Shown: one piece after another, positions 8,675 to 31,126 of the stretch
How positions within the stretch are numbered: the stretch's first letter is position 1
How the letters are laid out: the number at the start of each line of letters is the position of its first letter
IMG/VR virus record: IMGVR_UViG_3300031974_002463
Location: 1-31,126 of that record
Length of the DNA: 31,126 nucleotides
DNA from: a virus
Strand: one strand, 5' to 3'
Notes under the pieces: model-generated
Seen by the model: the letters and a program-made list of their open reading frames with translations, nothing else
The model's database searches: none
Told to the model about the DNA's origin: nothing
Made by a program: the position numbers and the translations under genes

Positions 8675-11600
8675 TTAAAGACCTGCGATCTCTCCTGTGT
8701 TTTTGATACGTAGCGGAATGTAAATAAATTCTACTGCTTTGACTGGTTCAATAGCAATATCTACATACAACTCGTTTCTATCAATTCTTGCTGGTGTGTT
8801 GTTTGTTTCATCACACACAACTAGGAAATCGTACAATGCTCTTAGTCCTACTAACTCAACCATTAATGTTTCTACTTGCTGTTTGATTTGATCACGTGTG
8901 ATTTTATCATTTGGTTCAAATAGATATGGTTTTGCAAGTTGATTTAACTGTCCACGTAAGTAAACAACAAGTCTTGCAACATTAATTCTATCTAATGCAC
9001 TTGCATTTCTTGCACGAGTTTTTTGTCCAAATACAACTAATCCTGCTCCACTTAAGAACGTGATTGGGTTTACGTTGTTTTGATATAATGTATCTCGTTG
9101 ACCTTCGTTAAGAGCAATACTTACAAATTCACCTTCGTTATCAATATAACCTGTTGCAGTTGCGTTTGTAACTCCGCCACGTCTTGTACCTGCTGGTGCA
9201 AACCATGGATAAGCAACTTGGTCGTTAAGCGCAAATGTACGTAGTACCATATGACTCGGAGGAACAACTACATTGTTACCTGCATTGTCACTAGTAAATC
9301 CTGCTGGATAATATACGCCTAAGTACTCATCTCTGCTTACTAATCCGTTATCGTTATCTTCTACAACTGTGTTAACATTGTTTGCCCAATCATTTAATGA
9401 TGTTGCATCGCTTGTTAAACGGAATGGAGAATCTCCTACAACAAATGCTGTTAAGCCTCTGTCATAGTTAAGTGTAATCATTTCACCGATTAATTCTGGA
9501 TAACCCGGTGTAGCCATTAAGTTAAATATTCTTGATTCATCATCACGTATATCTTGGTTTTCATTTACCAATGACTGTAATTTTTGGATTACAACTTTAC
9601 GTTGTGCTTTGCGTCCAAATGTACCAGAACCGTCTTCTTGATTAGCACTTTCAGTTACCCAACGATGTGGATAATAAGTACTCATATCTTGATCGTTATA
9701 ACGTTCGTTGTCACCTGTTGTGTCTACGTAGTTACGCTCAAAACGCTTAACGTTAAATCCGCTTCTACGTAAATTCCATAGTAACATACCTTTTGGATAT
9801 AGTGCTGGATCTGGAGCATCTGGATCTAAATAATCGCTTTCTAGTAGTGCTGCAATTGTTCCTGCTGTATGTGCAGAAGCACTGCCGCCATTTGTACTCC
9901 AACGAGCATCAGCAAAAAGCACACCGTTTTCAGTAGTTTGATCTGCGCTATCTAGTAATTCCCATTTTGACAATGTAGCATTGTATCTGTAAATGTTAGG
10001 ATAATTATCAATATTTGCAGTACTGATCCAAAGATCGCCAGTTACAAGATTTTCGCCATCTGATCTATCGCCATTTACTGGTTCTGTAGCACTTACAATA
10101 GGTCCTTCAGGATCTGGTTGCGTAGTGCTTACTCCGGTCCAATATGGACTTGCTGTGCTGCTTTCACCAGATGAACCGTCATATAATAATCCAACCCACT
10201 CACTGCCGTTATGTACCATCATGTCAACTTCGTCAACAACACTGCTATACCATAATGCTCCGTCTGCTGCTAGGGCACTAGGTGCATCATCACTTGCTGT
10301 GTATGTCATTTCTTGCCATAATGTTGCATGTAATTGTAAAGGACTTGAACCACTGCCAGTACCTGGAACATAATGCATGTTTACTGTACCGGTTTTATCG
10401 GTATAATCATATGGCTCAAATCCTAATAATGTTAATGCACCTGATGTGTCTACTAAGCGTATTTCTCCGCCTTTGCTGTGGCTAATAACTAATCTATTGA
10501 TACTATCAACACTACCTGTTACATTTGTTAGTCCTGCTGCGTTGATTGCTGCCGCTGCTGTTTCTGCATCAGTTGCATCGCCTGCTGCTGTAAATGTCAC
10601 ATTGACTGCTGGATTTAATGCTTCTTGATTTACAATACTTTCTGCAATAGTAAATGAATAACTTGATGCTCCAGTTAATTGTGCAGCAACTTTAGCACTA
10701 GTTACTGTTAATGGAGATCCACTTGAGCGTCTATATATTGTGTAATCAGCAACACTAGAACTTGCTTCTGTTCTATTGTATTGTACATATACAGTTCCTG
10801 CGCCAAGATTTGCTCCACCGCCGGTTCTATCTAAGTTATAAATTGCGCTATGATTAGATGCATATAAAGGTGCATTTACACTTGACCATAATTCGCTATC
10901 TGCACTCCATTCTTTTACACTCCAGTTTGCACCAAAGTTTGGATTAGTTGTTTTGACCCAAATACTACCTGTTGGACGAGGATTGGTATCTGTTGATTTA
11001 TATCCTGGAATACTTGTATGCGCACTCATCTGTAAGTTTGGTGCATAGTATTGTCCTGCTGTTATACCTGCTGTTGCAAGTGGTGTACCTGTTCCGTCTG
11101 TCAATGTAATGCTATCTGCTGTTGATCCATTGTTAAAGAATACTAATCGTGAATTTACATTTTCTGCTCTTACGCCTGTGCCGCTTAGTGCTGTGTTGAT
11201 ATCAGTTACAGCATTGTCTAGTGTGTTGCCTGTTGTTAATGCTACAGTGTAAGGTGTACCACCTGCTCCTGGAATAGCAATAATAAAGGTATCTACACCA
11301 CCTGTAAATGTAGGTGCACCTACTGTACCAGTAACAGTTGCCCAACTGTTTTTCCAATTAGCACTACCAACTTCTACCCATGTGCCGCTTGTATTTTTGT
11401 ACCATGTACGAATAACAGTAGATACTGCGACTACTGCGTAATCTCCTACAGCACCTACGCTACCGTTTGGTGCAAAAGGACTTGATGAAGCAGTTTGTGT
11501 AGTACTTGTAATTAAAATCGGTGTCTTCTTTGTAAAACTTTGACCGCTTGTGTTACTAGTACTTAATGCACTTCCGTCCCATTCAAACACACCAAAAGAA

Positions 11601-12025
11601 GATATACCAGTGTCTAGCCAGTATGTTCCGTCATCTGGATTTTCAGTAGTAGGAGTTGAACTTGCATTTAGTGCAGCAAGATCAACATCTGCACGTACAA
11701 CATATGCTCTGTTGCTCACACCCAAGTATGAATATGCTGCTTGCAAACCGTATTCGTTTTGTTCTCCGCCGTGTATTGGGTTGTTATTTGTATCTGTATA
11801 AAATGCTGGATCTCCGAATGTTTCTACTAAATCACGCTGTGAAGTTAGTAAGTAAACTTTTCCTGCATTTGCTTTTGTTGTTCCAGGTGCAATGCCTGTT
11901 CCTGCACCATTTAATTTATTTTGTGCTGTAGCAACAAAAATAATAGGTGTTGTGCCTGGCTCAGCAGGAGTATAAAAACTCTCATCTATTACTGAGACCT
12001 GAACGCCCGGTGATGTTAATGCCAT
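8675..12025 (-). CDS. 18: Tail sheath protein (gp18-like) with very large surface insertion
   Basis: 1116 aa, against 659 for T4 gp18. The sheath core is split. Residues 1-115 (MALTSPGVQVSVIDES, LVETFGDP, NRAYVVRA) form the N-terminal part. Residues of about 735-1116 hold the conserved C-terminal part, including SALDRINVARLVVYLR, VVCDETNNTPARIDRNEL and a terminal beta strand as in T4. Between them lies an insertion of about 620 residues. It contains two related copies of a flagellar-hook-IN-like motif (about 240-325 and 435-545, each with a DA-x-x-INAA/INTAL helix and a LVI/LVF strand) and several G-x-[LI]-W plus [YEH]-[NW]-x-W aromatic modules (about 133-150, 353-380, 589-612, 663-690). A TAGGAGA ribosome site precedes the ATG. 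The insertion is presumably displayed outside the tail. Confidence 0.94.
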   Translation of the reverse strand: MALTSPGVQVSVIDESFYTPAEPGTTPIIFVATAQNKLNGAGTGIAPGTTKANAGKVYLLTSQRDLVETFGDPAFYTDTNNNPIHGGEQNEYGLQAAYSYLGVSNRAYVVRADVDLAALNASSTPTTENPDDGTYWLDTGISSFGVFEWDGSALSTSNTSGQSFTKKTPILITSTTQTASSSPFAPNGSVGAVGDYAVVAVSTVIRTWYKNTSGTWVEVGSANWKNSWATVTGTVGAPTFTGGVDTFIIAIPGAGGTPYTVALTTGNTLDNAVTDINTALSGTGVRAENVNSRLVFFNNGSTADSITLTDGTGTPLATAGITAGQYYAPNLQMSAHTSIPGYKSTDTNPRPTGSIWVKTTNPNFGANWSVKEWSADSELWSSVNAPLYASNHSAIYNLDRTGGGANLGAGTVYVQYNRTEASSSVADYTIYRRSSGSPLTVTSAKVAAQLTGASSYSFTIAESIVNQEALNPAVNVTFTAAGDATDAETAAAAINAAGLTNVTGSVDSINRLVISHSKGGEIRLVDTSGALTLLGFEPYDYTDKTGTVNMHYVPGTGSGSSPLQLHATLWQEMTYTASDDAPSALAADGALWYSSVVDEVDMMVHNGSEWVGLLYDGSSGESSTASPYWTGVSTTQPDPEGPIVSATEPVNGDRSDGENLVTGDLWISTANIDNYPNIYRYNATLSKWELLDSADQTTENGVLFADARWSTNGGSASAHTAGTIAALLESDYLDPDAPDPALYPKGMLLWNLRRSGFNVKRFERNYVDTTGDNERYNDQDMSTYYPHRWVTESANQEDGSGTFGRKAQRKVVIQKLQSLVNENQDIRDDESRIFNLMATPGYPELIGEMITLNYDRGLTAFVVGDSPFRLTSDATSLNDWANNVNTVVEDNDNGLVSRDEYLGVYYPAGFTSDNAGNNVVVPPSHMVLRTFALNDQVAYPWFAPAGTRRGGVTNATATGYIDNEGEFVSIALNEGQRDTLYQNNVNPITFLSGAGLVVFGQKTRARNASALDRINVARLVVYLRGQLNQLAKPYLFEPNDKITRDQIKQQVETLMVELVGLRALYDFLVVCDETNNTPARIDRNELYVDIAIEPVKAVEFIYIPLRIKNTGEIAGL

Positions 12026-17060: not shown

Positions 17061-17495
17061 ATGAACAAGATTATTTGCAGTGGTGCTTTATTTTATTGCA
17101 CATCTACAAAACGTTTTTTACTATTATATAGAGAAAAAAGTAAAAGTAAAAATGTATGGGGATTAGTAGGAGGCAGGAATGATTCTTATGAAACCCCATG
17201 GAGTGGTTTACAAAGAGAAATTAAAGAAGAAATAGGATTTTTACCCGATATTAAAAAAACTGTTCCTTTAGAAACTTTTATCAGTACTGATGAACACTTT
17301 AATTTTCATACATATTTGTGTGTTATAGATAAAGAATTTATTCCAAATCTTAATGAAGAACATAGTGGATATGCTTGGGTACAAATTAACAAATGGCCCA
17401 AGCCTTTACACAATGGTTTACAAAACACATTGCGTAGCAAAACTAATCAACTAAAATTGGATACAGTTATTCGTCTGGTAGAATTAATTGATTAA
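17061..17495 (+). CDS. Nudix hydrolase
   Basis: 144 aa with a complete Nudix box, G38-x5-E44-x7-R52-E-x-x-E-E-x-G59-F60, inside the usual context VWGLVGG before it. The family hydrolyses nucleoside diphosphate-linked compounds using a metal bound by the REUXEE glutamates. T4-like phages carry related enzymes (NudE in T4), but this substrate cannot be inferred. The gene begins 13 bases after the gp15 stop and lacks a strong ribosome site. It is probably read from the gp14-gp15 transcript, since I see no separate promoter. Its last 29 bases overlap the end of the opposing 1284-aa gene. Confidence 0.92.
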   Translation: MNKIICSGALFYCTSTKRFLLLYREKSKSKNVWGLVGGRNDSYETPWSGLQREIKEEIGFLPDIKKTVPLETFISTDEHFNFHTYLCVIDKEFIPNLNEEHSGYAWVQINKWPKPLHNGLQNTLRSKTNQLKLDTVIRLVELID

Positions 17496-20400
17496 ACTGG
17501 GATTTGAGCCATTCAAAATCGTTTATCTTTTTCATTTCTTCAACATTTGATTTATTCTCTTCGCCAAATTGTTTACCTGCTTTTGCTCCTGCTATAGCAA
17601 ATTTTCCAAACGGTTTATCGTCGCCTCTTGTACACCATGCATCTAATCTAAATTCAGTCTCTTCATCTACTTGCCTTGCGATAGTTTTACTAGATAGTTT
17701 TGCACATTCTCTAAATCCACTACGCCATGCACTAAATGCATCAGTGTTAAATAAAGTTTTGTTACTCATTTCTGCAATTGCTTTGAATTTATCACTAATA
17801 CTTGTGGTCATATCTGCACTACTTACATCAACATTTCTGGTTAAATGTGTTGGTAATAATTTTACACCGCCATAACCATATACTAATCCGTTAACTGGAT
17901 TATAACTACGCCAAACATGTACAGTATCCTGTCCATCAATGTCATATTTAGGAACATAGTAATCAAAATTAAATTCTTCTAAAATTTCTGCATCAGCATC
18001 AACTACCCAGAACATATCTGTTTCAACAAGTTCGGCTGCACGTTTATGTGCTTGATGGATACCTTTTATATTTTGAACGTGTTTTGCTCTTGCAAATTTT
18101 GATGACAATAAATTAAAATTATCATCTGCATTTGGTTCACCGTTACTAATGAAAACAATATCATAAGGCTTAGGCTGGCTTGCTACTTCGTCATATTCTT
18201 TTTTAACAGCAAAAAATCTATAATCTATTTCACGTTGACTTAAATTTAAATCTTTACTAACAAGTGCTATACCATCATAATATTCGTTATTTTTCCATAC
18301 GTGGTTTATTTTTCTTTCGTATTGGTTATGATGGCTAATATAAAAGTTCCAATTAAAATCTTTATTTGGAAGAATATCATTGTATGTTATCCAGAACATA
18401 CCTGTATTACATTCTTCTTTTGCTTGCATATAGTCAGTATAATCATTTATAGTATAAATTGGAAAGGGTTTAGGATCACTTGCTACTATGTCCCATTCTT
18501 TCTTTTGAATTATAAATCTATGCTCCACTTCTTTTTCGCTAACCAATACATTTTTACTGAATAAAACAAGCCCATCATAATTTTCTCCATTTAAGAAAAC
18601 ATGATTTATATTTCTATCAAATGTATTATGATGACTAAAATATAAATCTAAATCAAAATCTTCTCTAATTACAATGTCACTTGGTATACCCCAAAACATT
18701 TCTGTAGCAGTATGATATAATGCATTGGTATAATCATCATAATTGTTAATTGTAAAAACATTATATTTTTTAGGTTTACTAAACATAACATCGTGTTCTT
18801 TTTTATCAGCATAAAATCTATGCTCTATTTCTTTTTCTGAAACAGAATTACTTTTGCTATATAATGCTACACCATCATAGTCATCGCCATTTTTAAAGAC
18901 ATGTGTCACACTTCTATCTAAGGTTTCTAACTCGGATACATATTTGTCCCAATCAATTGTATCGTCAGGTTCTACATCCTCTGGTATTCCCCAGAACATA
19001 TCTGTCTTACTATGTAAAAGAGCATTTGAATAGTCTTCAAATCCATTGATAATAAATTTTTCAAATCTTTTTGGTATACTTACAACTTCATTGTGTTCTA
19101 TTCTATCTACTAAAAATCTATGTGTAAATTCTTTTTCAGTAACAACACTATGTTTGCTCATTAACGCAATACCGTCATAATTTGCACCATTTTTCCATAC
19201 GTGGTTTGTCTTTCTATCAGTGCTGGAATGAGGCAAATAAAAGTCTAAGATATCTTTTTGTAGTAACTCAATGTCGTTTGGTATTACCCAAAACATCTCG
19301 CTAAAACTTTTTTCTACTGCATCTAAATATTCATCATATGTGTTAATATAATAGTGATCGTATCTTTTAGGATTGCTTGCTACTATGTCCCATTCTTTTT
19401 TGTTTGCACTATAGAACCTATGATCAATTTCTTTTTGAGTAAATGGGCTGTGTTTACTAAACAAAACAACACCATCACGATGTTCGCCATTTAAAAAAAT
19501 ATGATTTATTTCTCTATCAAATTTGTTGTCGTGACTAAAATATAAATCAAAATCAAAGCCTTTTTCTAATTGTACATCGTTTGGCAAGCCCCAAAACATT
19601 TCAGTTTCGCTATTGCTTAGGGCATTTAAGTAATCGTCATAACAAGATATTTCAAAAACCTGATATTTTAATTGATTACTTGCTATATCTTCATGCTGTT
19701 TTTTGTTTACAATATATCTATGTTCAACTTCTTTTTGGGTAAGAGGAGATGCTTTTGAACATAGGAAAAGTCCGTTATATAAAATTTCATCTCCAACCTT
19801 GTGACCAAATACATGATTTATTTCTCTATCATATTTGTTATCATGACTAAAGTATAAATCAAATTTCCATCCTGAAGTATCAATATTTCTACTGTCTGCC
19901 CAAAACATTTCTGTTTCAGAATTTTCTAAAGCAGATTGATATTCGTCCCAACTATCTACAAAAAACACTTGATATTGTTTTGCTTTACTTGCAATTTCTT
20001 TGTGTTCTTTTTTATTTACAAGATATCTGTATTCAATTTCTTTAGGTGTTAATGGAACAAGTTTTGAGCACAAGAACAATCCGTTATATAAAATTTCATC
20101 TCCAACACTATGGCCAAACACATGATTTATTTCTCTATCAAACCTGTTATGGTGACTATAATAGATATTAAAATTCCAATTTATTGTATCGATATTTCTG
20201 CTATTGGCCCAAAATAAATCAGTTTCGGAATTTTCTAAAGCATATTCGTATTCTTCCCAGTTATCGATCATAAAAACAGGATATGGTTTAGGTTTGCTTG
20301 CTTCGACATTCCACTCTTTTTTATTAGCAATAAATCTATGTTCAAATTCTTTTTCACTAATAGGTGCATGTTTAGATAGAAGAATTATACCGTCATAAGT

Positions 20401-21321
20401 TTCTCCGTTGAGCCATACATGATTAATTGTTCTATCAAAATTATTATGATGACTAAATGTCATAGAAAAATCAAAATTGTCTTTTACTATAATATCATCT
20501 GGCACATACCAAAATAATTCTGTTTTAGCGTATTCTTGTGCATGTAAATATTCTTCATAATTTTTAAAACTATATTTTTCATACTCACGTGGAGTACTTG
20601 CCATTATGCGAATTTCTTTTTTGTTTGCATAAAATCTATGCTCTAATTCTTTATCAGTAATATCTAAGTTTTTTGGAAATAATGCAACACCATCTAGTCT
20701 GTCAATATCTCCGTTGCCGAACACATGCACAAAATCAAAACTCCATTCGTCTGGTTTGTAACTAAACTTAAATGTATCTCTCAATAATGTATCATCGTAA
20801 ACTGCCCAAAACATGTCTGTAAAACTTTGTTCTTGTGCTTGTTGAAAACTATCTACAATTTGAATATTGTGGTTCTTTTTAATTTTTTCAAATTGTTCTG
20901 TATCTTTACCAATATAAAAAATATCAAACTTGTCTTGTCCTTTGTAAGGACTATAATGTCCGCAAATATATTTTTCTTCTATTTCAAGAAAGTTATTGTT
21001 ATGTGCATTTCTAGGAACAAGTCTAACTTCATCATAACTTTTAATTTTTCTACTTTCTTCGAAAACATAAGGAAATTTAAATACAGCCAGTTGTGTAGGA
21101 TTGTAATACCAAGGAAAACTTGGATAAATTTCTATGCCTTTTCTAACTAGCCATACATAGTCAGTTGTGATTTCGTTGTTATTCTGTAATATAGAATAAT
21201 CTGTAGGATCGTCTACATATAAAATATCTGCCTTATTCAAGATATGATTTTTTAAACTATCTTGTCCTGGAAAAATAGATGATGTCTTTTCGGCTAGTGA
21301 AAATTTACTAAATGCTTTCAT
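17467..21321 (-). CDS. Giant tandem-repeat glycosyltransferase-like protein
   Basis: 1284 aa. The C-terminal domain (about 1052-1284) matches a phage glycosyltransferase-like family I recall from marine phages: YDIVFISNGEPNADDNF, KGIHQAHKRAAELVETDMFWVVDADAEI with an intact D1108-A-D1110, YGYGGVKLLP, then TTSISDKFKAIAEMSN and a Cys-containing end (LDAWCTRGDDKPFGKFAIAGA). Before it lie nine repeats of about 100 residues and a degenerate N-terminal copy (about 53-105). All repeats keep T-[ED]-MFW, HV[FW]-x-NG, YDG-[VI]-x-L-x-SK, [KR]E-[IVF]-x-[HY]-R-[FY] and NKKE, but none keeps D-x-D. Start and upstream stop overlap (ATGA). The N-terminus MKAFSKFSLAE resembles a capsid-targeting peptide. Expression is from a sigma-70 promoter two genes upstream. 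I infer sugar transfer or sugar binding; the repeats may be scaffolds or lectin-like arms. Confidence 0.85.
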   Translation of the reverse strand: MKAFSKFSLAEKTSSIFPGQDSLKNHILNKADILYVDDPTDYSILQNNNEITTDYVWLVRKGIEIYPSFPWYYNPTQLAVFKFPYVFEESRKIKSYDEVRLVPRNAHNNNFLEIEEKYICGHYSPYKGQDKFDIFYIGKDTEQFEKIKKNHNIQIVDSFQQAQEQSFTDMFWAVYDDTLLRDTFKFSYKPDEWSFDFVHVFGNGDIDRLDGVALFPKNLDITDKELEHRFYANKKEIRIMASTPREYEKYSFKNYEEYLHAQEYAKTELFWYVPDDIIVKDNFDFSMTFSHHNNFDRTINHVWLNGETYDGIILLSKHAPISEKEFEHRFIANKKEWNVEASKPKPYPVFMIDNWEEYEYALENSETDLFWANSRNIDTINWNFNIYYSHHNRFDREINHVFGHSVGDEILYNGLFLCSKLVPLTPKEIEYRYLVNKKEHKEIASKAKQYQVFFVDSWDEYQSALENSETEMFWADSRNIDTSGWKFDLYFSHDNKYDREINHVFGHKVGDEILYNGLFLCSKASPLTQKEVEHRYIVNKKQHEDIASNQLKYQVFEISCYDDYLNALSNSETEMFWGLPNDVQLEKGFDFDLYFSHDNKFDREINHIFLNGEHRDGVVLFSKHSPFTQKEIDHRFYSANKKEWDIVASNPKRYDHYYINTYDEYLDAVEKSFSEMFWVIPNDIELLQKDILDFYLPHSSTDRKTNHVWKNGANYDGIALMSKHSVVTEKEFTHRFLVDRIEHNEVVSIPKRFEKFIINGFEDYSNALLHSKTDMFWGIPEDVEPDDTIDWDKYVSELETLDRSVTHVFKNGDDYDGVALYSKSNSVSEKEIEHRFYADKKEHDVMFSKPKKYNVFTINNYDDYTNALYHTATEMFWGIPSDIVIREDFDLDLYFSHHNTFDRNINHVFLNGENYDGLVLFSKNVLVSEKEVEHRFIIQKKEWDIVASDPKPFPIYTINDYTDYMQAKEECNTGMFWITYNDILPNKDFNWNFYISHHNQYERKINHVWKNNEYYDGIALVSKDLNLSQREIDYRFFAVKKEYDEVASQPKPYDIVFISNGEPNADDNFNLLSSKFARAKHVQNIKGIHQAHKRAAELVETDMFWVVDADAEILEEFNFDYYVPKYDIDGQDTVHVWRSYNPVNGLVYGYGGVKLLPTHLTRNVDVSSADMTTSISDKFKAIAEMSNKTLFNTDAFSAWRSGFRECAKLSSKTIARQVDEETEFRLDAWCTRGDDKPFGKFAIAGAKAGKQFGEENKSNVEEMKKINDFEWLKSQFNQLILPDE
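18022..20820 (-). repeat. Nine tandem protein-coding repeats of about 300 bp
   Basis: Units begin at residues 168, 267, 367, 470, 573, 674, 773, 873 and 973 of the 1284-aa protein; the next copy, at 1101, is the catalytic-looking domain. Lengths are 99-103 aa, except the last, which is 128 because it includes the PNADDNF segment. Units three and four share an extra loop (GHxVGDEILYNGLFLCSK) found in no other unit, indicating a recent duplication. The DNA shows matching recurrent segments such as the antisense of HRF...NKKE about every 300 bases. Confidence 0.9.
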
Positions 21322-21902
21322 AATGTATTTGCTTTCAATCCTAAATGAGTCAGTTTTATATCTGCATCAACGTAAACGTCTATTCCGTGATGCATTGCCT
21401 GATTACAAAAGTATATATCTTCTCCGCTGAAGTTATCTAAAATTTTATTGTATTCATGTGCAAACCAAGGTTTAGGTAATTCGTTATAAACTGTTGCTCT
21501 TGTTAACATACACCCCATACCTATTGCCCAAACTTTGTGTAATCCTGTAGATTCATTTAATCTACTATTCATATTGTTAGGATCTGTAAATGCTACAGTT
21601 TGATAAGGAGCATATCTAGTGCTATACTGTCCTGCTACAATGTCTTGATCATGTTGTAATAATTTTTCTGCAATAGAACTAGAAAAATGCATGTCACTGT
21701 CTAGCCAAAGTAAGTGTGTAGCATTTTTGCTTAATGCTTCTTTGGCTAAATCAGTACGTAGTTGTGCTATTACACTACCGCAAACTATATGTAATTCAAA
21801 GTCTATTTGTTTACTGGTTAACCTATTGGTAAGATTAACTAGGCTTTTTGTAAATAGTGTGTGAACTTGATCTCTAGCAGGAACGCAAATACCAAGTTTC
21901 AT
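21318..21902 (-). CDS. Small GT-A-fold glycosyltransferase
   Basis: 194 aa. It shows the short GT-A arrangement: an N-terminal strand GICVPARDQV, SVIAQLRTDLAKEAL (the S-x-I-x-x-x-R segment), then HLLWLDSDMHF with a metal-binding D68-S-D70. A GMGCMLTRA loop follows, and then SGEDIYFCNQAMHHGIDVYVDADIKLTHLG, which carries the ED and the final H typical of this group. It should transfer a sugar from a nucleotide sugar; acceptor and donor are unknown. It overlaps the upstream 125-aa gene by TAATG and the downstream repeat protein by ATGA, so all three are translationally coupled. This makes a joint pathway with the giant protein likely. Confidence 0.88.
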   Translation of the reverse strand: MKLGICVPARDQVHTLFTKSLVNLTNRLTSKQIDFELHIVCGSVIAQLRTDLAKEALSKNATHLLWLDSDMHFSSSIAEKLLQHDQDIVAGQYSTRYAPYQTVAFTDPNNMNSRLNESTGLHKVWAIGMGCMLTRATVYNELPKPWFAHEYNKILDNFSGEDIYFCNQAMHHGIDVYVDADIKLTHLGLKANTL

Positions 21903-22279
21903 TACAAGATTGTGCTAGGAATTTCTGCTTCGTTCAATTCTTTTTCTGCTTCAACAGTCAAATCATTCCAGCGTCTTGCACAACCTGTTGCAACTTTTAC
22001 TGCTTCTTGAAAATCTTCAGCACTTAAACTAGACATAGCAATCATGTTTTCAGGTTGTACTTTTCCAATTGTAAGCAAGTCTGCCCCGGCTGCACGACCA
22101 ATTTTTTGTGTCCAATGATGACGTTCGTCGTCTTCTGGAATATCCATTTCGCTGATTGCTTCTTTTACAGCAATTTCAACTTGTGTATCCATGATAATGG
22201 TTTCCAGTGTTGCAAGTTTACGTGCTTTTGTATATTCTTGTGCTAAATCAACGTTCAGCACTTCGTAAAGTGTTTTCAT
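21902..22279 (-). CDS. Unknown 125-aa protein, first gene of the glycosyltransferase operon
   Basis: 125 aa, mostly helical and acidic. I do not recognise a family. Visible features are a charged helix at residues 14-45 (AQEYTKARKLATLETIIMDTQVEIAVKEAI), a DIPEDDERHHWTQKIGRAAGADLL segment, and a C-terminal helix containing CARRWNDLTVEAEKELNEAEIP. There is no membrane segment or signal peptide. AGGAG lies eight bases before the ATG, and a strong sigma-70 promoter lies upstream, so it is probably well expressed. Its position ahead of two glycosyltransferase-like genes suggests a partner or regulator of them, but that is context only. A tail-fibre accessory role is equally possible. Confidence 0.75.
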   Translation of the reverse strand: MKTLYEVLNVDLAQEYTKARKLATLETIIMDTQVEIAVKEAISEMDIPEDDERHHWTQKIGRAAGADLLTIGKVQPENMIAMSSLSAEDFQEAVKVATGCARRWNDLTVEAEKELNEAEIPSTIL

Positions 22280-22301: not shown

Positions 22302-22330
22302 ATTGTAAATGATTTACTTTTGTTTGTCAA
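22302..22330 (-). promoter_or_regulatory. Sigma-70 promoter of the glycosyltransferase operon
   Basis: On the minus strand a perfect TTGACA (22330-22325), a 17-bp spacer and TACAAT (22307-22302, 5 of 6) precede the 125-aa gene, with AGGAG in the leader. A palindrome GTAAATGATTTAC (22305-22317) overlaps the -10 box and could be an operator. Confidence 0.85.
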
Positions 22331-22334
22331 CCTT

Positions 22335-24398
22335 TTATCCATCAAAGGTAAAGTGATACAAATTGCCTCCACGAGACAAGATGTACATATTTTCTCCAAC
22401 ATGATCTGCTTGCCAGCCCGCAATGTCAATACCGTAAGGCAGTTGCAGTGTTCTTTGTAATGTCCAGGTACCGTTTACAAGATCTCTACTACTGCACGTA
22501 AATTGCCCAATTGTATTTGCCCTAGGGGCATATAAAAAGAATTCTAAATAATCGGGTTGGATAGAATTATTCAAGTGTCTTACCAATAATCCAGTAATAT
22601 GTCCGCCGCTTGCAACTCCTGACGAAACTCTACCATATGGATCAAATCCTGCATTCACAGCCTTTGTATCTATAGCAGTATTAACAGAAAAACTACTATA
22701 TGCACTACCAAACTGTGCCCAACTTTGATTATTTGATGCAGACCATTGATATAAGTATTCATTATCTCTAAGCAACCAAAAATAAGACTCTATATTGTCT
22801 TCGCCCAGTCTTGATGTTTCAACACTGTGTCGCATACTAACCATATCAATTGATGAGTTTACATCAGTATTAACATTTTTAGTTTGTCTAGAAGTGGGTG
22901 GATTGATTAATGAGCCGCCATTGGAAGCATTTAATGCTAAAAATGGAGTGCCGGCACTATTGTATGCGTATGCATATTTTGTATTAGTAGAATGATATAA
23001 CCAATCTCCAAGTGTAAATGCAACCATATTGTTTGCTGTTCCGTCGATCCAACTACTTACATTAAAATTTGCTGTGCTTGAAAGAGATTTAATGTTCCAT
23101 CCTTCGCTTAAAGTAAGTTGATAAGTCGATTCATTTATTGTATCATAAAATCCAACAACGGTTCCTGCTTTGTTATTTGCATATAAACTCCCTGTGTTGT
23201 ATCTTCTAAGCATTTGGTATTGTTGTCTTACACCAGTTAATGATCCGGGTAATCCAATCATAGGATACCAAAAATCTTTTGTTTGATTAGTAGGATCAAC
23301 TGACGACAAGTCTTTAGTAGTATAATCAAATGCAGTAGTAAGAGGAAAGGTAATCAAAGAGGTTGAAGTCACAGGTGCCATAACTACTTGTGTTCCGGCT
23401 GCATTTATATGCCAACCACCATATGTACCAAATTCAGGAATAGTAAAAGGACCGGCTCTATCGTTAGACGTAACATTACTTGCTATAATATCCCACGGTG
23501 TACTCAGGTCCCATCTGTAATGAGTACCACTAGTGCCTCCTTGAGTATGTGCAGATACATAAACATAGTCTCTTGTAACTTGGAAAAAATCAGGATATTG
23601 TACGGCAGTAATAACTGTGCTAATACCGTCGTAAGTTGGTGTATTTGCAACAGGGTCGTTTCCTGTAAAACTGAATTGACGTATATATTGATATGAGTTG
23701 GCACTTTGGCCAACATCAGGTGTCATCAGCCATAGTTTACCTTCTTCAACATTAATTTGTGCATACTCGCTACGAGGTAACGGATGATCTGAAACAAATG
23801 TAGACATTGATCTTGTGCCGACTTTTGTGGAGGTGGATAAATCCCAGGCAGTTGTCAATGTCCATTTGTCAATTCTAGCACTTGATCCGGCACCTGTAAT
23901 TCCATAACATACAGTCCCTGCTGCATTAAATCCTATACCAGAGTCATAATGTTCAAAACAACTATCTGAGTTGTTGGATTGAAAACTTTTAAATTCGCCT
24001 GTACCTAATGCATACGGACTTGCAAATTTAATTTGACAACCACCTTCGGTATTGAGTCTGTAATAAATGTATGCATAAGTTCCGTCAGGATTAACATACA
24101 AATAATCTATTTGAGGGTTATTAATGGTATGATGTCTCCATCCTTCAACTTCTTGAAAGTTTTGAGGTTGACCTTGAATTCTAAGATTTGCAAGATTGAA
24201 GTTTTTTGAATTAGCATAACTACCAGTACTAGACCCTAATCCTCCAAAACTGCTACTCATGCTAACAGTATTACCAGTACTAATGCCAATATATGTCCCA
24301 AGCACACCTAGCACAAATGTACTAGGTTGTCCTTCAGAAACAAAAAAGTTTCTAATATCACTCATTGTTATAGTAGAGCCAGTTGCGGGTAAAGCCAT
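22335..24398 (-). CDS. Propeller-like tail or receptor-binding protein
   Basis: 687 aa. The N-terminus, MALPATGSTITMSDIRNFF, resembles short anchoring segments of marine phage tail proteins. Residues of about 75-687 contain recurrent blade-like units with an aromatic strand ending followed by a TxWD turn: KWTLTTAWDLSTSTKVG, YRWDLSTPWDIIASNV, ITFPLTTAFDYTTKDL and YQLTLSEGWNIKSLS. Further Y-x-Y and G-T-x-x-V strands lie between them, together suggesting a beta-propeller of four or more blades. This repeat style is common in phage proteins predicted to bind surface ligands. It lies directly downstream of the long fibre and is driven by a consensus sigma-70 promoter rather than a late box. Receptor binding is inference; a decorated baseplate protein is an alternative. 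Confidence 0.8.
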   Translation of the reverse strand: MALPATGSTITMSDIRNFFVSEGQPSTFVLGVLGTYIGISTGNTVSMSSSFGGLGSSTGSYANSKNFNLANLRIQGQPQNFQEVEGWRHHTINNPQIDYLYVNPDGTYAYIYYRLNTEGGCQIKFASPYALGTGEFKSFQSNNSDSCFEHYDSGIGFNAAGTVCYGITGAGSSARIDKWTLTTAWDLSTSTKVGTRSMSTFVSDHPLPRSEYAQINVEEGKLWLMTPDVGQSANSYQYIRQFSFTGNDPVANTPTYDGISTVITAVQYPDFFQVTRDYVYVSAHTQGGTSGTHYRWDLSTPWDIIASNVTSNDRAGPFTIPEFGTYGGWHINAAGTQVVMAPVTSTSLITFPLTTAFDYTTKDLSSVDPTNQTKDFWYPMIGLPGSLTGVRQQYQMLRRYNTGSLYANNKAGTVVGFYDTINESTYQLTLSEGWNIKSLSSTANFNVSSWIDGTANNMVAFTLGDWLYHSTNTKYAYAYNSAGTPFLALNASNGGSLINPPTSRQTKNVNTDVNSSIDMVSMRHSVETSRLGEDNIESYFWLLRDNEYLYQWSASNNQSWAQFGSAYSSFSVNTAIDTKAVNAGFDPYGRVSSGVASGGHITGLLVRHLNNSIQPDYLEFFLYAPRANTIGQFTCSSRDLVNGTWTLQRTLQLPYGIDIAGWQADHVGENMYILSRGGNLYHFTFDG

Positions 24399-24420: not shown

Positions 24421-24448
24421 ATTATAACATACTGTGTACGTGTGTCAA
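24421..24448 (-). promoter_or_regulatory. Consensus sigma-70 promoter (perfect -35, extended -10)
   Basis: The minus strand reads TTGACA (24448-24443), a 16-bp spacer, then TATAAT (24426-24421), preceded by TGT as an extended -10. Both hexamers match consensus exactly. The predicted leader to the ATG at 24398 is about 15-17 bases and contains AACGGA as a weak ribosome site. Confidence 0.88.
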
Positions 24449-24469
24449 GTAGCCGTTACCGGCTACTTG
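24446..24469 (-). terminator. Hairpin directly after the fibre stop codon
   Basis: A perfect 10-bp stem CAAGTAGCCG/CGGCTACTTG with a 4-base loop begins at the base after the fibre TAA. No T-run follows on the minus strand, so it may be a weak terminator, an RNA 3'-end stabiliser or a processing site. Its last bases form the start of the -35 box of the next promoter. Confidence 0.65.
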
Positions 24470-27400
24470 TTACTTATCTAATAATTTCTGAACCATAGAT
24501 TTTAATTCATCAATTTCTTTTTGTTGCTCTTTTATTGCTTCTATAAGAACCGGTGCAATACGTTCGTATTTTACAGTTAAATAATCTTTACCGCTTCTAC
24601 TGTTTTGTTCATCATCTAAGTCAAACGGTGCAGGAGCAACTGCCTCAGGTAATACTTCTTGAACTTCTTGTGCAAGTAAACCAACTTCACGTTTTTCTGT
24701 GTCAACATCAAGTCCCCACTTGTGACCTTCGTCTGTCCAATTATAAAGAACACCATTTAATGCTTTGACTTTGTCAAGTGCATTTGGAATGTTTTCAATG
24801 TTGGTTTTAAGTCTAGCATCCGAAGAGTATGCTGTAACTTCTCCAGGGAATAATGTATTACCGCTACCGTCTAAGATCGTTGCAGTTCTAGTTAAAGTAG
24901 TAAACACACCGCTATATTGTCTATGGTAATGAGGTTCTGTACCGTCGTCGCCTGTTGCTGCTTCCAAGTAACCTGCATTTGATCCAGTAGCAGCACCACC
25001 AAATCTCCATTGGTCGTTGTCGCCCATTGTACCTTGTGTACCACGGAATGCTGTACCGCTATTACTAAACAATATAGTTGCAGTTGCAGTATTGTTACCG
25101 CCTGTTCTCAAGAATCCTGTGCTGTCAATACCGTCAAGTGTATTAGCATCATCAGCACTAATACCGCTTAGTCCGCTACCGTCTCCACTAAATGATGTTG
25201 CACTAATATTACCGCTAATACTAATACTACCAGTACCGCTTAATGTACCTGTGAATGAATCATTTGCATCTGCACGTATAAAAGATCCGCTACTCAACCC
25301 ATCTAATTGGTCTGCATTAAGTCCGCTACCTGCACCATCGTTGCCACTGTGCCAAACTGTATATGCAGTTCCGTCAAAGGCATATTCTAGTCCATTTGCA
25401 CCTGATCTAATATCTAAATAATCATCACTAGTATCATTATACAAACGTAATCTGTTACCACTATCAACAAATTGAATATACGCTGCTCTTGTTGTTGATT
25501 GATAGAAACTCATATACGGATCACCTGCTGCATCAGTATCTTGTAGACGCAGCATTTCATTACCTGCTTTACTAATTGTAATCATACCTGATGTAGTATC
25601 ATCTGCATTACTACGTAAGAATGCTGTGCTATCAACACCGTCAAGTGTTGTAGCATCGACGCTAGTAAGTCCACTACCGTTACCAGTAAATGTACTTGTA
25701 CCAATGTTAATATTGCCAAACCCGCTTGTGATTTCGCCAGCATTTAGAGCACCAGTACCTGTTAAGTTACTGTATGTTCCTGATACACGAGCATTTGGAA
25801 CAGTACCCGAACCTAAATTATTTGCATTCAAATCAGTTAGTCCAGAACCGTTGCCGTTAAATGAACCACCGTAAATATCTCCTGCTACACCTAAACCGCC
25901 TCCTACTCTGACAGCACCTGTAGTTGTATTTGTTGATGCGCTAGTATCACTAAATGTTTTTACACCAGCCATACTTTGATTACCGCCTAGTCTGCTACCA
26001 GACACTGTACCAGTTGATAAGTTGCTTGCATTTAAACTGGTTAGTCCGCTACCATTACCAGTGAATGTATCGGTACCAATGTTAATACTGCCAAATCCGG
26101 CTGTAATACTACCACTGTTCAAAGCACCTGTACCTGTTATACTTCCTTGGTGCTGAACTATGCTTGTAGAGGCTATTCTTGCGTCAGGCACTGTACCACT
26201 TGACAAATTGCTTGCATTTAGTGTTGTAATACCACTGCCGTCACCTGTAAATATACTAGTGCCAATGTTGATATTACCAAAGCCTGTGCTAATACTGCCG
26301 CTGTTTAATATTCCAGTTCCTGTAATATCTGCTTGGTGTTGTGTTATACTACTAGATGTAATACGTGCATCTGCAATACTACCACTGGTAATATATTGAG
26401 CATCAATATCGCCAATGAAATTATCTGCACGTATGTCTTTGACAACAGCCAATCCACCGCTGATAATAACTGCTGCACTGCTATTGCTTGTAGCATTTGT
26501 TGCTTCTGTAAATGTAACAAAGTTGTTTGCAGTGAGTGTTGTAAATGCACCTGTAGAAGGAGTAACATTACCAATTGGTGTATTGTTGATTTGGCTAACA
26601 AACAAATCACCGTCGATGTACATATCTGCGTTAGTTCTTAAATCAAGTCTAACAATCATTTCGCCTAATGCACTTGCTAAGTTTGCGGCTGCTTTTGTTT
26701 CGCCAATTACAATTTCTGTTGCTGCCTGAGCCATTGCTAATGTAGTAGCATTATCTTTTAGTAAGTTAAATGTACCTGTTTCATCTGTATCAAGTGTATT
26801 ACCATTTACAAATAAATTTCCTGCAAAGTTTGCAGTAGCATTTGCAACACCAAAGTCACCAGTTGCTGCACCAATGTTGATATCTGTTGCTGCACCAAAT
26901 GCATTTACTGTTGTGGCAGTTGTATTAAGTAAATTAAATGTACCTTGGTTAGTTGTAAAGTCGCCACCGTCAACATTCAAATCTAAATCAACATCTAAAT
27001 TGTTGTTTACACTTGTTGTACCAGTAGTAGCACCAATGTCAATAGCGGTAGCAGCACCACCAAAGTTAATAGTCGTTGCTGTTGTATCCAGTAATCCCAT
27101 TGTAGCACTACCTGCAACAATACTTGTTGTTATAGTTGGACTTGTGCCAAATACTAATGCACCTGTTCCAGTTTCGTCACTTATAACGCCAGCAAGTTGA
27201 GCACTTGTTGTTGATGCAAATTGGCTTAATGGATCACCTATAATTGCTAATGTACCACTAGTTGGCAGTGTTATACTTGTAGCACCAGTTGTGGTAAGTC
27301 CTAGTGTATGAGCACCAGTATGCGTCAAATTACCGCCAAGAGTAATAGTTTTGCTACCATTGTTTACACCTGTACCACCATATGTTGGGTCAATAATTGT

Positions 27401-30400
27401 TGCTTGCCAAGTACCTGTTGCAATTGTACCTAATTGCTGTAGACTACTGTTTACAACTGCTGATCCTAGTGTAGTACTGTTGAGAACGCTCGCATCGTTA
27501 ATATAATAGGCTTTACCGCTTGCTAGGTTAAAGTCTTCACTGCTATCCCAACTTGTATTTGCGTTATCCCATGTTAAAGTAGCATTTGCACCATCTACAG
27601 TAATTCCTGCGCCATTTGCTGCTGCACCATCTGCTGCTCCGCTGGCAACAACAATATTCAAGTCATCAACTGTGAGTGTTGTACTGTTTATAGTTGTAGT
27701 TGCACCATTTACTGTAAGATTGCCTGTTATTGTTAAATCGCCTGCAATACCTGTATTACCTGTTGCATATGCAACAGTAAACTTAGTCAAACCATCACCA
27801 AACCCTAAGTCACCAGTTGCACCAATTTGCATACGTGATGTGCCTGCTGTTAAGAAATCAAGTTCGTCATTATCAGCGCCTGCACTTGTTTCTGGTCTAA
27901 TAAGTGTGTCTTGATCGACGTCTTTAACACCGCCTAGTGATCCCCAGTTACTTCCATCGTAACCTTCAAATGTACTATCGCTTGTGTTATAACGAATCTG
28001 ACCTTGTGCTTCAGGTGTTGAAATGCCTGTTTCTCCAGGACGTTGAGCACTTGAACCAACTGGTACTTTTACTGCTGTTGTATCAGTAAATTCTGAATAC
28101 CCTGTTACAGTCATTTTGCCACTTGTATTAATTCTCATACGCTCAGTAGGTGTATGCTGAATATCTCCGGTTGTCAAAACTTCACCTGTTTTAATAACTA
28201 CGTCACCACCTGTTGCATTACCTGTACCGTGTCCGCCTTCAATTGTAACAGCACCGCCTGCTATATCTACACCAATACCATCAGAACCTTTTATAGTTGC
28301 ATCTGTTGTAGAAGATTCTGCTTCTGCTCCTCCTAAAATAATTTTCTTATTTCTTAAAATTAAAGAGTTATCAATAGTTAAAGTTCCAGTTATTGCACTT
28401 AACGGGTCTGCTGTTACGTTAGCATCAGTTCTTACTGTAAATGATGTAGCGTTACTAGTTGCACCTACAACTGGCCAACTACCATCTAAATTTGTAATAC
28501 CACTGCTACCAAAATTAATAGTATCTCCTGCACGTACACCTAGTGTAAATGGAGTATATGTAAATGTGAGTGTAGTACTTGATAAAATAGTACCAGTTGT
28601 ATCATTACTTAAATATACATATTCGTCAGTGACACCACTGACTGTTGTATTTGCTGGAATACTTCCACTGCCCGTAATGAGCATACCTGCAAGCACTCCT
28701 GTTGTATCGCCTAAAGGTATTTCTTTTTCACCATTAGCAACTGGACCGTTTGTTGTTTGATTTACATCACCTAAGTTAACAACTACATCTTGAGATGATG
28801 TTGCTTCATAACTACTCGCAAAAGTGAATAAGTTTCTATTAGTAGAACTTTTACCTATTTTGATATTTGTAGCATCGCCGCCAATTTCTAAACTTGTTAC
28901 ATTATCATTGTAAACTTGTCCAGCACCTGTACTACTTGAAGTAAGTTTTGCAGATCCAACATCCAAACCCTCTGATAGATCTAGTGCCGTTCCCCATTCT
29001 GGTGTAGTACCGTTTGATTTAAGGAACGCATTGTTTCTACCAATGTTTAGTGTGTTTAAACTACCAGTTGTTTGTGCATACAAAATATCACCAATTGCAT
29101 ATGTACTGATGTTTGTACCGCCTCTATTTACAGGAACAAGACTTGTTAAGTTTGCAGGGTTTAAGAAATATGCACTATCTAATCCGTCTACTGTACCTGC
29201 ATCAATGACACCGTCTTTGATGAATACTTGTCCGCTTGCATCAGTTGCAACATTAAATTGTGTTTGCAAAAATCTACTTACACCTAATGTTGAAAATGTT
29301 CCAAGTGGATCATAGTCTGTATTTGATATACCAATGTTAACAGGATCGCCATAGAATTCATCATTTACACTGCTACCTGTTAGCGTAATTGGGTTGTCAG
29401 TTGTGTTTAATTTTTTCAATGTTTGTACAACAACTTTGTAAGAACTGTCACCAAACAATGTTGTGTCACTGTTAGCAACTCCTGCTGCTCCTAAACGTGA
29501 TGGAGATATCGTACCTGAAATAATATTTTCAGCATCGATGTTTGTAACAGCAAGAGTGTTCCAGTTTACTTTAACTCTACTTGACGTATTGATTACAGTG
29601 TTAACTTGCACGTTGTTTCTAATAATTCTCGCACTACCAATGCCTGCGTCTGTTAAATCTTCTGCATTTGTAACCAAGTCGTTAATACTGCTTAGTGCGT
29701 CACTTCTTAGTGCATGTAAAGTAAACGAACTTGTAGTTACACTACCTATAAAGAATCTAGAACCGCTGTCTATCTCTGCACCATTAATATCTGGTAAAGC
29801 ATTAGAAGTACTTCCGTCACTTAATGATTCTACTCTAATTGCATCACCAGTAGTATATCCATGATTTTGAACAACTACACTGTTATCTGTTGTATTGACT
29901 GTAAATCTTGTAATATTATGATTGTTGTTTGCCGGAGTGCTTGTAAACTCTACTTTGTTTAGTAGTGCAAAGCCTTCGTGCAATTCTATTGTATCTACGT
30001 CAATGACTTTTACATAATATACTTGGTCATTTAGCAAGCCGCCAATTGGAACATTTGCTAATGTATCATAAGTAACCGGATCCCCATTTGTAAATCCGTG
30101 ACTCGGAATATTTATTCTGTAATTTCCATAATCAACTGCACCACCTGCTCCTGAACCACCTGCTAAGAAGTTATGGGTAATAATATCATCTAAATTAATA
30201 TCACGGGCTTGTTGCACTGCTGTATTGTCTTCAACAAAGTCAATACTTGAACTACTTGCAACAAATAGTTCACCGCCTAAAATGTTTACATAAGCACGTT
30301 TTTCTATTGCAGTAATTTCAATTTGGAAGCCGCTACCTGTGCCACCAACATCTGATGCACTTACTCCTAATAAGTCGCCTTCTGCATATCCAATGCCGCC

Positions 30401-31126
30401 TCTTGTAATATCCACATCAGATACAGCCCCGGCTGTTACTGTAATGTTTCCTTTAGCACCAGTACCAGATCCGGTTATTGATGTTAAAGCAACATCTGCA
30501 TAAATTTGACTACCATTTGTCGGTGTATACAGTGTTCCGCCTACTATGTTTGCGTTATCTAAATTAGTTGCAACACCAAATCTTGTTTCTGTTACAGCAC
30601 CTTGAGCACCGCCATCAGCACTAGTTACAATACTAAGTGCTTGTCCGTCTGTTACAGAAAATGATCCAACATCGCTACCTGTGTTAGCAATAGTGAATGT
30701 AGTAGTAGTGGGTGTACTTAAAACTAAACCGTTTTGATTGAAAGTTTCATCATCTGTAGTTTGAACTCGAACATTATTATCAACATTCAAATTATGTGCG
30801 CCACTTGTAGTGACGGTAACAACGTTACTACTTCTTGCTAAGTTTGTTATTGTAGCACTTGTAAAAGTATAATTATCAGTTGTATCTAATGTTAAAAATT
30901 GACTAGTGTTACTACTACGTAAGAAGAAGTTATCAATAATTTCACTACTCACACCTTTACTTGTTATATTTACACCACTGTCAACGCCGTTAACATAAAT
31001 ATTTCCGCCACTTACTTCCCAAGGATCTCCTGTGCTATCGTCAGTAGCATCCCATGCTGCTCCAGTTGTAGCAACTAATATGTTTGTACTACTTGGATAA
31101 TCATTTTTTGCATAACCAATAGCACC
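24470..31126 (-). CDS. Very long tail fibre with S74 intramolecular chaperone; N-terminus beyond window
   Basis: At least 2218 aa. The frame stays open from the TAA at 24472-24470 to the right edge; a GTG at 30952 is internal, because 58 further codons upstream continue the same glycine/serine-rich style. The body is a beta-rich fibre of low complexity (G, N, S, T, D). It has recurrent GFGNINIGTSTFTGNGSGLT and NLSSGTVPDARI units, several LDGIDSTGFLR collagen-fibre-like modules and TTATTINFGGAATAIDIG units. The last 117 residues are a Peptidase_S74/endosialidase chaperone: SDARLKTNIENI at the start, VGLLAQEVQEVLPEAV, VKYERIAPVLIEAIKEQQ and a terminal coiled coil. Such domains trimerise the fibre and are then cut off just before the SD. 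Its role is host attachment. Confidence 0.93.
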   Translation of the reverse strand, partial: GAIGYAKNDYPSSTNILVATTGAAWDATDDSTGDPWEVSGGNIYVNGVDSGVNITSKGVSSEIIDNFFLRSSNTSQFLTLDTTDNYTFTSATITNLARSSNVVTVTTSGAHNLNVDNNVRVQTTDDETFNQNGLVLSTPTTTTFTIANTGSDVGSFSVTDGQALSIVTSADGGAQGAVTETRFGVATNLDNANIVGGTLYTPTNGSQIYADVALTSITGSGTGAKGNITVTAGAVSDVDITRGGIGYAEGDLLGVSASDVGGTGSGFQIEITAIEKRAYVNILGGELFVASSSSIDFVEDNTAVQQARDINLDDIITHNFLAGGSGAGGAVDYGNYRINIPSHGFTNGDPVTYDTLANVPIGGLLNDQVYYVKVIDVDTIELHEGFALLNKVEFTSTPANNNHNITRFTVNTTDNSVVVQNHGYTTGDAIRVESLSDGSTSNALPDINGAEIDSGSRFFIGSVTTSSFTLHALRSDALSSINDLVTNAEDLTDAGIGSARIIRNNVQVNTVINTSSRVKVNWNTLAVTNIDAENIISGTISPSRLGAAGVANSDTTLFGDSSYKVVVQTLKKLNTTDNPITLTGSSVNDEFYGDPVNIGISNTDYDPLGTFSTLGVSRFLQTQFNVATDASGQVFIKDGVIDAGTVDGLDSAYFLNPANLTSLVPVNRGGTNISTYAIGDILYAQTTGSLNTLNIGRNNAFLKSNGTTPEWGTALDLSEGLDVGSAKLTSSSTGAGQVYNDNVTSLEIGGDATNIKIGKSSTNRNLFTFASSYEATSSQDVVVNLGDVNQTTNGPVANGEKEIPLGDTTGVLAGMLITGSGSIPANTTVSGVTDEYVYLSNDTTGTILSSTTLTFTYTPFTLGVRAGDTINFGSSGITNLDGSWPVVGATSNATSFTVRTDANVTADPLSAITGTLTIDNSLILRNKKIILGGAEAESSTTDATIKGSDGIGVDIAGGAVTIEGGHGTGNATGGDVVIKTGEVLTTGDIQHTPTERMRINTSGKMTVTGYSEFTDTTAVKVPVGSSAQRPGETGISTPEAQGQIRYNTSDSTFEGYDGSNWGSLGGVKDVDQDTLIRPETSAGADNDELDFLTAGTSRMQIGATGDLGFGDGLTKFTVAYATGNTGIAGDLTITGNLTVNGATTTINSTTLTVDDLNIVVASGAADGAAANGAGITVDGANATLTWDNANTSWDSSEDFNLASGKAYYINDASVLNSTTLGSAVVNSSLQQLGTIATGTWQATIIDPTYGGTGVNNGSKTITLGGNLTHTGAHTLGLTTTGATSITLPTSGTLAIIGDPLSQFASTTSAQLAGVISDETGTGALVFGTSPTITTSIVAGSATMGLLDTTATTINFGGAATAIDIGATTGTTSVNNNLDVDLDLNVDGGDFTTNQGTFNLLNTTATTVNAFGAATDINIGAATGDFGVANATANFAGNLFVNGNTLDTDETGTFNLLKDNATTLAMAQAATEIVIGETKAAANLASALGEMIVRLDLRTNADMYIDGDLFVSQINNTPIGNVTPSTGAFTTLTANNFVTFTEATNATSNSSAAVIISGGLAVVKDIRADNFIGDIDAQYITSGSIADARITSSSITQHQADITGTGILNSGSISTGFGNINIGTSIFTGDGSGITTLNASNLSSGTVPDARIASTSIVQHQGSITGTGALNSGSITAGFGSINIGTDTFTGNGSGLTSLNASNLSTGTVSGSRLGGNQSMAGVKTFSDTSASTNTTTGAVRVGGGLGVAGDIYGGSFNGNGSGLTDLNANNLGSGTVPNARVSGTYSNLTGTGALNAGEITSGFGNINIGTSTFTGNGSGLTSVDATTLDGVDSTAFLRSNADDTTSGMITISKAGNEMLRLQDTDAAGDPYMSFYQSTTRAAYIQFVDSGNRLRLYNDTSDDYLDIRSGANGLEYAFDGTAYTVWHSGNDGAGSGLNADQLDGLSSGSFIRADANDSFTGTLSGTGSISISGNISATSFSGDGSGLSGISADDANTLDGIDSTGFLRTGGNNTATATILFSNSGTAFRGTQGTMGDNDQWRFGGAATGSNAGYLEAATGDDGTEPHYHRQYSGVFTTLTRTATILDGSGNTLFPGEVTAYSSDARLKTNIENIPNALDKVKALNGVLYNWTDEGHKWGLDVDTEKREVGLLAQEVQEVLPEAVAPAPFDLDDEQNSRSGKDYLTVKYERIAPVLIEAIKEQQKEIDELKSMVQKLLDK
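25640..26405 (-). repeat. Internal fibre repeats of roughly 180 bp
   Basis: Related segments begin near 25640, 26035 and 26215. Each encodes a NASNLSSGTVPDARI-type motif, a TGTGALNSGSITAGFG-type motif and a NINIGTSTFTGNGSGLT-type motif. The spacing between the last two copies is about 180 bases (60 residues), while the first is separated by an unrelated insert. Boundaries are approximate. Confidence 0.75.

Follow-up and report, generated by a model that had tools for sequence, protein, structure and literature searches.

Introduction

The GT2-like GT-A enzymes (PF00535) possess a strand-helix core and a D-x-D motif, both of which are common to the C-terminal domain of the phage protein described here. 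Sequences of the phage family fell below the PF00535 cutoffs, and nine dead copies precede the domain in the phage protein, which distinguishes it from the PF00535 enzymes. CHPF and LH3 carry an extra GT-A domain that is catalytically inactive and lies beside an active one, as in the phage protein. Both were among the matches of the structure models described below. These two proteins have one full-size partner, whereas the phage family has 0-16 shortened tandem units.

Tandem BACON repeats occur in proteins of crAss-like phages and have been described as an evolutionary hotspot (PMC6949934). As far as the available text of that paper goes, they are likewise a tandem carbohydrate-associated domain in a phage protein, but BACON is a different domain, and the repeat described here derives from an enzyme fold. 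In pelagimyophages, a host-recognition island with glycosyltransferases and radical-SAM cassettes was located between VrlC and gp14, a neck gene (PMC7029224). The present family shares its genomic place and its association with glycosyltransferase and radical-SAM genes, whereas the available part of that description makes no mention of tandem dead units.

The locus lies in a 31-kb IMG/VR virus record of a marine phage (31,126 nucleotides, analysed whole and termed the window), which carries T4-like structural genes for the sheath, tube, a gp15-like protein, neck, terminase and an S74-domain tail fibre. The tail sheath protein (8675-12025) has 1116 residues and is much longer than that of T4. 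IMG/VR was scanned with the catalytic domain, which returned at least 592 relatives, and further scans were aimed at long arrays. The relatives compared were the best 80 related contigs of each scan.

Results and Discussion

Layout of the Repeat Glycosyltransferase

The repeat glycosyltransferase gene, obtained from the ORF call and its translation, encodes 1284 residues (Table 1). An N-terminal domain is followed by nine units of about 100 residues each (144-1049 in total) and by a C-terminal domain. The MFW motif was located at residues 170, 269, 369, 472, 575, 676, 775, 875 and 975 in units 1 to 9 (LFW in two of them) and at residue 1103 in a tenth, catalytic copy. The framework of MFW, HVF/HVW and YDG/YNG was present in 9/9 units, the pairwise identity among the units was 30-70%, and their scores against the unit profile were 108-151 bits. 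The nine repeats and the C-terminal domain with VVDADAE, which had been proposed in the first-pass annotation, were thus confirmed by the ORF, the unit profile and the MFW spacing. Residues ~30-135 resembled a further, very degenerate unit. No strongly hydrophobic segment was found in the protein (maximum Kyte-Doolittle 19-residue mean of 0.96). The convergent Nudix gene on the plus strand (17061-17495) overlaps the repeat gene by 29 nt (17467-17495).

Table 1. Coordinates of the repeat glycosyltransferase gene, its parts and the neighbouring features in the window.
Feature	Position	Strand	Basis
Repeat glycosyltransferase gene	17467..21321	-	ORF, translation
N-terminal domain, residues 1-143, degenerate unit-like stretch VWLV...YVF...YDEVRLVP	20893..21321	-	6-12 bits, unit profiles
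Unit 1, residues 144-237, YDD; orthologous to the first unit of the common five-unit form	20611..20892	-	tree, profile
Unit 2, residues 238-336, PDD; ortholog of common-form unit 2	20314..20610	-	tree, profile
Unit 3, residues 337-439, SRN; additional, pairs with unit 4	20005..20313	-	tree, identity
Unit 4, residues 440-542, SRN; additional, duplicate partner of unit 3	19696..20004	-	tree, identity
Unit 5, residues 543-643, PND; additional, probably matches L002 unit 4 in position	19393..19695	-	tree
Unit 6, residues 644-742, PND; additional, common to L002 unit 5	19096..19392	-	tree
Unit 7, residues 743-842, PED; ortholog of common-form unit 3; modelled	18796..19095	-	tree, structure model
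Unit 8, residues 843-942, PSD; ortholog of common-form unit 4; modelled	18496..18795	-	tree, structure model
Unit 9, residues 943-1049, YND; ortholog of common-form unit 5; modelled	18175..18495	-	tree, structure model
C-terminal domain, predicted GT-A glycosyltransferase, residues 1050-1284	17470..18174	-	L002 model fold, PF00535 in homologs
Intact D-A-D (VVDADAE), residues 1108-1110	17992..18000	-	sequence
GT194, second glycosyltransferase, intact LWLDSDM	21318..21902	-	phrog_1574 E 4.5e-25
p125, small conserved protein, first operon gene	21902..22279	-	phrog_1409 E 3.9e-10, function unknown; synteny
Predicted sigma-70 promoter TTGACA-17-TACAAT, 11/12	22302..22330	-	promoter search
Giant tail-fibre gene, truncated by the window edge; S74 chaperone domain at the C-terminus	24470..31126	-	PF13884 E 1.6e-18

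Fold of the Units and the Catalytic Domain

The fold of the repeats was evaluated with an AlphaFold model of three units (residues 743-1044), from which the catalytic domain was excluded and for which 44 homologs were used. The pLDDT was 93.1 and the pTM was 0.84. Strands and helices alternated in each unit; the beta-solenoid that had been named as a contrary outcome was not seen in the model. In the Foldseek comparison with the PDB, the E-values were not significant, and the top rows were mostly GT-A enzymes. After VIA re-alignment, the best 50 rows were all of the glycosyltransferase or nucleotidyltransferase type, with Z values of 4.6-7.1 over ~98 residues per unit; these values are below the stand-alone level of 8, and the case is made by the uniformity of the rows together with the sequence homology. 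The profile-profile comparison of the units with the C-terminal domain by hhalign gave a probability of 97.7% and an E-value of 2.1e-12 over 62 columns. According to these fold matches and this homology, the units are shortened GT-A domains, in line with the GT-like character first attributed to them.

The C-terminal domain was examined in the model of a close homolog (L002, residues 948-1092). It displayed a GT-A fold with VIA Z values of 9.5-12.1, 125-140 aligned residues in most rows and an rmsd of typically 2.6-3.5, and the Foldseek GT-A match had an E-value of about 1e-4. The matches included B4GALNT1 (Z 12.1), SpsA, GalNAc-T2 and SunS, among others. PF00535 was seen in the C-terminal domain of 6/10 homologs (E 0.006-0.01, best E 0.0063); the gathering cutoff was not reached by the homologs, and the window protein itself gave no match to PF00535. 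The C-terminal domain is, by its modelled structure, an ordinary GT-A fold of an unnamed family and a predicted glycosyltransferase.

The difference between unit and enzyme was located by eye. The units proceed from the first strand (PKxYDxFxI) straight to the helix before MFW and lack the ~30 residues that make up a helix plus a strand at that point in the catalytic domain. Since this segment is missing and the first Asp of the D-x-D is gone, the units should not bind a nucleotide sugar in the usual way, that is, the usual site should not be formed. The whole protein is predicted to be a soluble glycosyltransferase with a C-terminal catalytic GT-A domain and an arm of shortened tandem GT-A domains.

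The full-length model matched two-domain GT-A enzymes, such as chondroitin polymerase and CHSY3-CHPF, at low confidence in the additional units (pLDDT <60 in parts, pTM 0.46), and no shape of the whole array is claimed from it. These matches would agree with units that serve the catalytic domain in dimerisation or allostery, in the manner of inactive GT-A partners such as CHPF, with no contact to the substrate. That role is regarded as rather improbable, because the range of 0-16 units and the array without a catalytic domain described below are hard to fit with a fixed interface.

Loss of D-x-D and Selection on the Units

To follow the motif, 1179 unit-like segments, taken from non-identical ORFs of the relatives, were aligned by profile. 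The D-x-D was present in 189/1179 segments, all 189 of which were listed as catalytic domains, and in 0/990 repeat units. The observation that only the last copy has an intact D-x-D therefore extends to the whole family, and intact active sites in every unit of the relatives, the other contrary outcome named at first, were not encountered. DGD or DAD occurred in 150/151 distinct homologous C-terminal domains, and the exception was a truncated fragment. The framework of the units was strict (His 97%, Gly 98% and Trp 91% of 990 units), as had been suggested. The motif was not lost completely, however: the second Asp was retained in 7/9 window units and in 521/990 family units (53%), and Asn was found in 281/990. 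The loss of the D-x-D is mainly at the first Asp.

The units are under purifying selection. Their dN/dS in comparable pairs of five-unit relatives was ~0.02-0.21, as against ~0.01-0.11 for the catalytic domain; dS was often near saturation in these pairs, and the less diverged pair L019/L023 agreed. Recent multi-unit duplications in some lineages could be taken as neutral duplication with decaying, functionless copies. Such decay is scarcely credible, since it is contradicted by the low dN/dS, the positional orthology and the strict framework residues (H 97%, G 98%).

Moreover, the array survives without a catalytic domain. An 845-residue ORF with seven units and no catalytic domain was found in six contigs (L279, L280, L281, L288, L289 and L309; 7977-10511), and no remnant catalytic domain was found downstream of this ORF. 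Between two of its alleles, 138 synonymous changes were counted against 52 nonsynonymous ones (dS 0.39, dN 0.025, dN/dS ~0.065). This array adjoins the fibre, p125 and GT194 genes, and a 236-kb phage with this array contains another, catalytic one at a radical-SAM locus. Two overlapping ORFs encode the array and the catalytic part separately in L301-L303 and L151/L152; they may be separate genes or the result of a frameshift. The selected array without a catalytic domain and the split ORFs indicate that an array need not share its polypeptide with a catalytic domain to be useful. Hence, the dead copies appear to be of use in their own right, probably as an arm for binding or scaffolding, and the selection for fold or binding suggested by the first-pass annotation is supported by the low dN/dS and by the survival of the array alone.

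The conservation of this array beside the fibre could also indicate a virion part, i.e., a spacer or decoration on the fibre or baseplate, in which the glycosyltransferase domain would be a remnant or an adhesin. Copy number typically varies in modular virion proteins, as it does here. The retention of the D-x-D in all distinct C-terminal domains except the fragment and the common occurrence of single-domain relatives without units argue against such a part, which is given roughly one chance in eight.

Copy Number and Evolution of the Array

Counting by profile, which had been recommended at the outset, gave 0-16 units in the relatives, most often five. The numbers of distinct proteins with a complete start were 24 for 0 units, 8 for 1, 6 for 2, 20 for 3, 10 for 4, 55 for 5, 3 for 6, 1 for 7, 3 for 8, 9 for 9, 2 for 10, 6 for 11, 1 for 12, 3 for 14 and 5 for 16; these counts differ from population frequencies, as the sampling tracks the queries and near-identical contigs remain. 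The nine units of the window, at first considered unusually many, are thus in the middle of the range, with five as the common form and 16 as the maximum seen among the relatives.

In the unit tree, the units of the common five-unit form were orthologous by position. Units 1, 2, 7, 8 and 9 of the window fell in the five common-form groups, and units 3-6 were additions. Units 3 and 4 are a duplicated pair (70% amino acid and 74% nucleotide identity) related to unit 3 of L002; unit 6 grouped with L002 unit 5, and unit 5 was matched to L002 unit 4 by position. The 16-unit array of L135 (135-5678) is a repeated three-unit block whose equivalent units are 59-92% identical. Copy number was thereby shown to change when one unit, or a block of several, is duplicated. 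In L097 and L100, the catalytic domain is followed by an extra C-terminal region of ~225 residues (about residues 890-1116 of the repeat glycosyltransferase). In L164 (3747-5708), a radical-SAM domain is fused to the same glycosyltransferase domain; this contig was binned as an Oligoflexia MAG.

The copy-number states are discrete, as would be expected of a molecular ruler, in which the length or spacing of a modified polymer would be dictated by how many units there are. The length of the neighbouring fibre was unrelated to the unit number: fibres had 3156-3637 residues beside five units, 2717 beside 8, 3920 beside 9, 3599 beside 11 and at least 3601 beside 16, a comparison that covers the neighbouring fibre only, with one or two complete fibres per class except five. 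The ruler put forward in the first-pass annotation is thus without support and is considered very unlikely.

Genomic Settings and Proposed Function

Two genomic settings were observed. In that of the window, a giant tail fibre (2717-3920 residues in the relatives), sometimes p687, and then p125, GT194 and the repeat glycosyltransferase face the Nudix, gp15 and neck genes. The end of GT194 overlaps the start of the repeat gene by 4 nt, and p125 overlaps GT194 by 1 nt. The homologs of GT194 retain the D-x-D, and its match to Anp1 (E 2.9e-6) was below the Pfam cutoff. Among 48 distinct five-unit loci, GT194 was present in 47/48, p125 in 45/48, Nudix in 47/48 and the fibre in 38/48. In most relatives, the fibre stop immediately precedes p125; where it does not, a promoter comparable to that of the window occurs in the same place. 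In the window, the 687-residue protein p687 (22335-24398) lies between the fibre and the operon; its weak resemblance to an actin cross-linking domain (E 0.0011) was below the cutoff and is probably due to chance. Just past the fibre stop lie a mismatch-free TTGACA-16-TATAAT promoter, on the minus strand, and a 10-bp GC-rich palindrome (24421-24448 and 24446-24469). The fibre and glycosyltransferase genes may be separate transcription units in the window phage. The T4 late promoter TATAAATA had one copy in the window, distant from the repeat gene, which is below chance expectation.

In the second setting, 0-4 (sometimes more) units are flanked by GT8-like genes, so named from resemblance only, a paralogous glycosyltransferase of 300 residues and two to four radical-SAM genes, two of which belong to the NF033640 twitch family. 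Relatives with 0-2 units were mostly found beside the twitch radical-SAM and GT8-like genes, with the fibre operon absent. Hence, the fibre cannot be the general substrate of the family.

The array is tentatively interpreted, with slightly less than even confidence, as the non-catalytic acceptor-binding or scaffold arm of a glycosylation system linked to the tail fibre. As a multivalent scaffold, the units would keep the acceptor (the fibre polypeptide or its glycan) close to the catalytic domain and GT194, so that a fibre of great length and repetitive sequence could be glycosylated many times, and the product would most likely be a glycosylated tail fibre. This function is preferred because it best joins the anatomy of the protein, the operon and the array without a catalytic domain. 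Putative multivalent sugar binding by the units is plausible, and putative binding of the fibre polypeptide is on an equal footing. Against this function, the unit number does not track the length of the neighbouring fibre, and promoters are predicted in the window between the fibre and the glycosyltransferase operon, so that co-transcription with the fibre is uncertain.

The main rival is a modification of the host surface polysaccharide (O-chain) that would exclude competing phages, in which the units would hold the glycan or organise a complex of several glycosyltransferases. The islands of pelagimyophages contain many glycosyltransferases and, in the available part of that account, were proposed to alter the host O-chain (PMC7029224). 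The window gene is in a like place, between fibre and neck genes, and the predicted sigma-70 promoters before the operon would permit expression outside the late phase. An enzyme of this kind is less easily reconciled with the tight coupling of the operon to the fibre in most relatives, with a protein that has no membrane-like segment and with the operon genes, among which no polyprenyl-linked glycosyltransferase partner was recognised. O-chain modification is given about one chance in five.

Novelty and Significance

No family for the repeat glycosyltransferase was found in Pfam, PHROGs or NCBIfam, and weak Pfam rows, e.g., DUF4309, were below the cutoff. The PDB gave no credible match by sequence, and no description of such dead-unit arrays was found in the open-access literature. 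A tblastn search of isolate phage records with the full protein, the catalytic domain and a single-domain relative gave no match in a collection that may omit near relatives. The unit model matched two uncharacterised proteins of uncultured Caudovirales in BFVD, A0A6J5LK21 (E 1.3e-9) and A0A6J5L5L5 (E 5e-9). The tandem array of shortened inactive glycosyltransferase copies is new with respect to the family models, the PDB sequences and the papers searched. A further-reaching proposal, doubtful as a whole, is that of a new repeat protein with a glycosyltransferase fold, without a nucleotide-sugar site and in up to 16 copies, whose stripped array would be an adjustable, non-catalytic scaffold for the processive modification of giant fibres, with the catalytic domain possibly on a separate protein.

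Environmental phage contigs often carry the family (one scan gave at least 592 related contigs), which is absent from the isolate records and family libraries searched. If true, the array would clearly exemplify the conversion of an enzyme fold, by a virus, into a series of repeats that can expand. A natural series of 0-16 copies and a natural form without the catalytic domain are available, and the family is a defined system for asking whether and how tail fibres become glycosylated.
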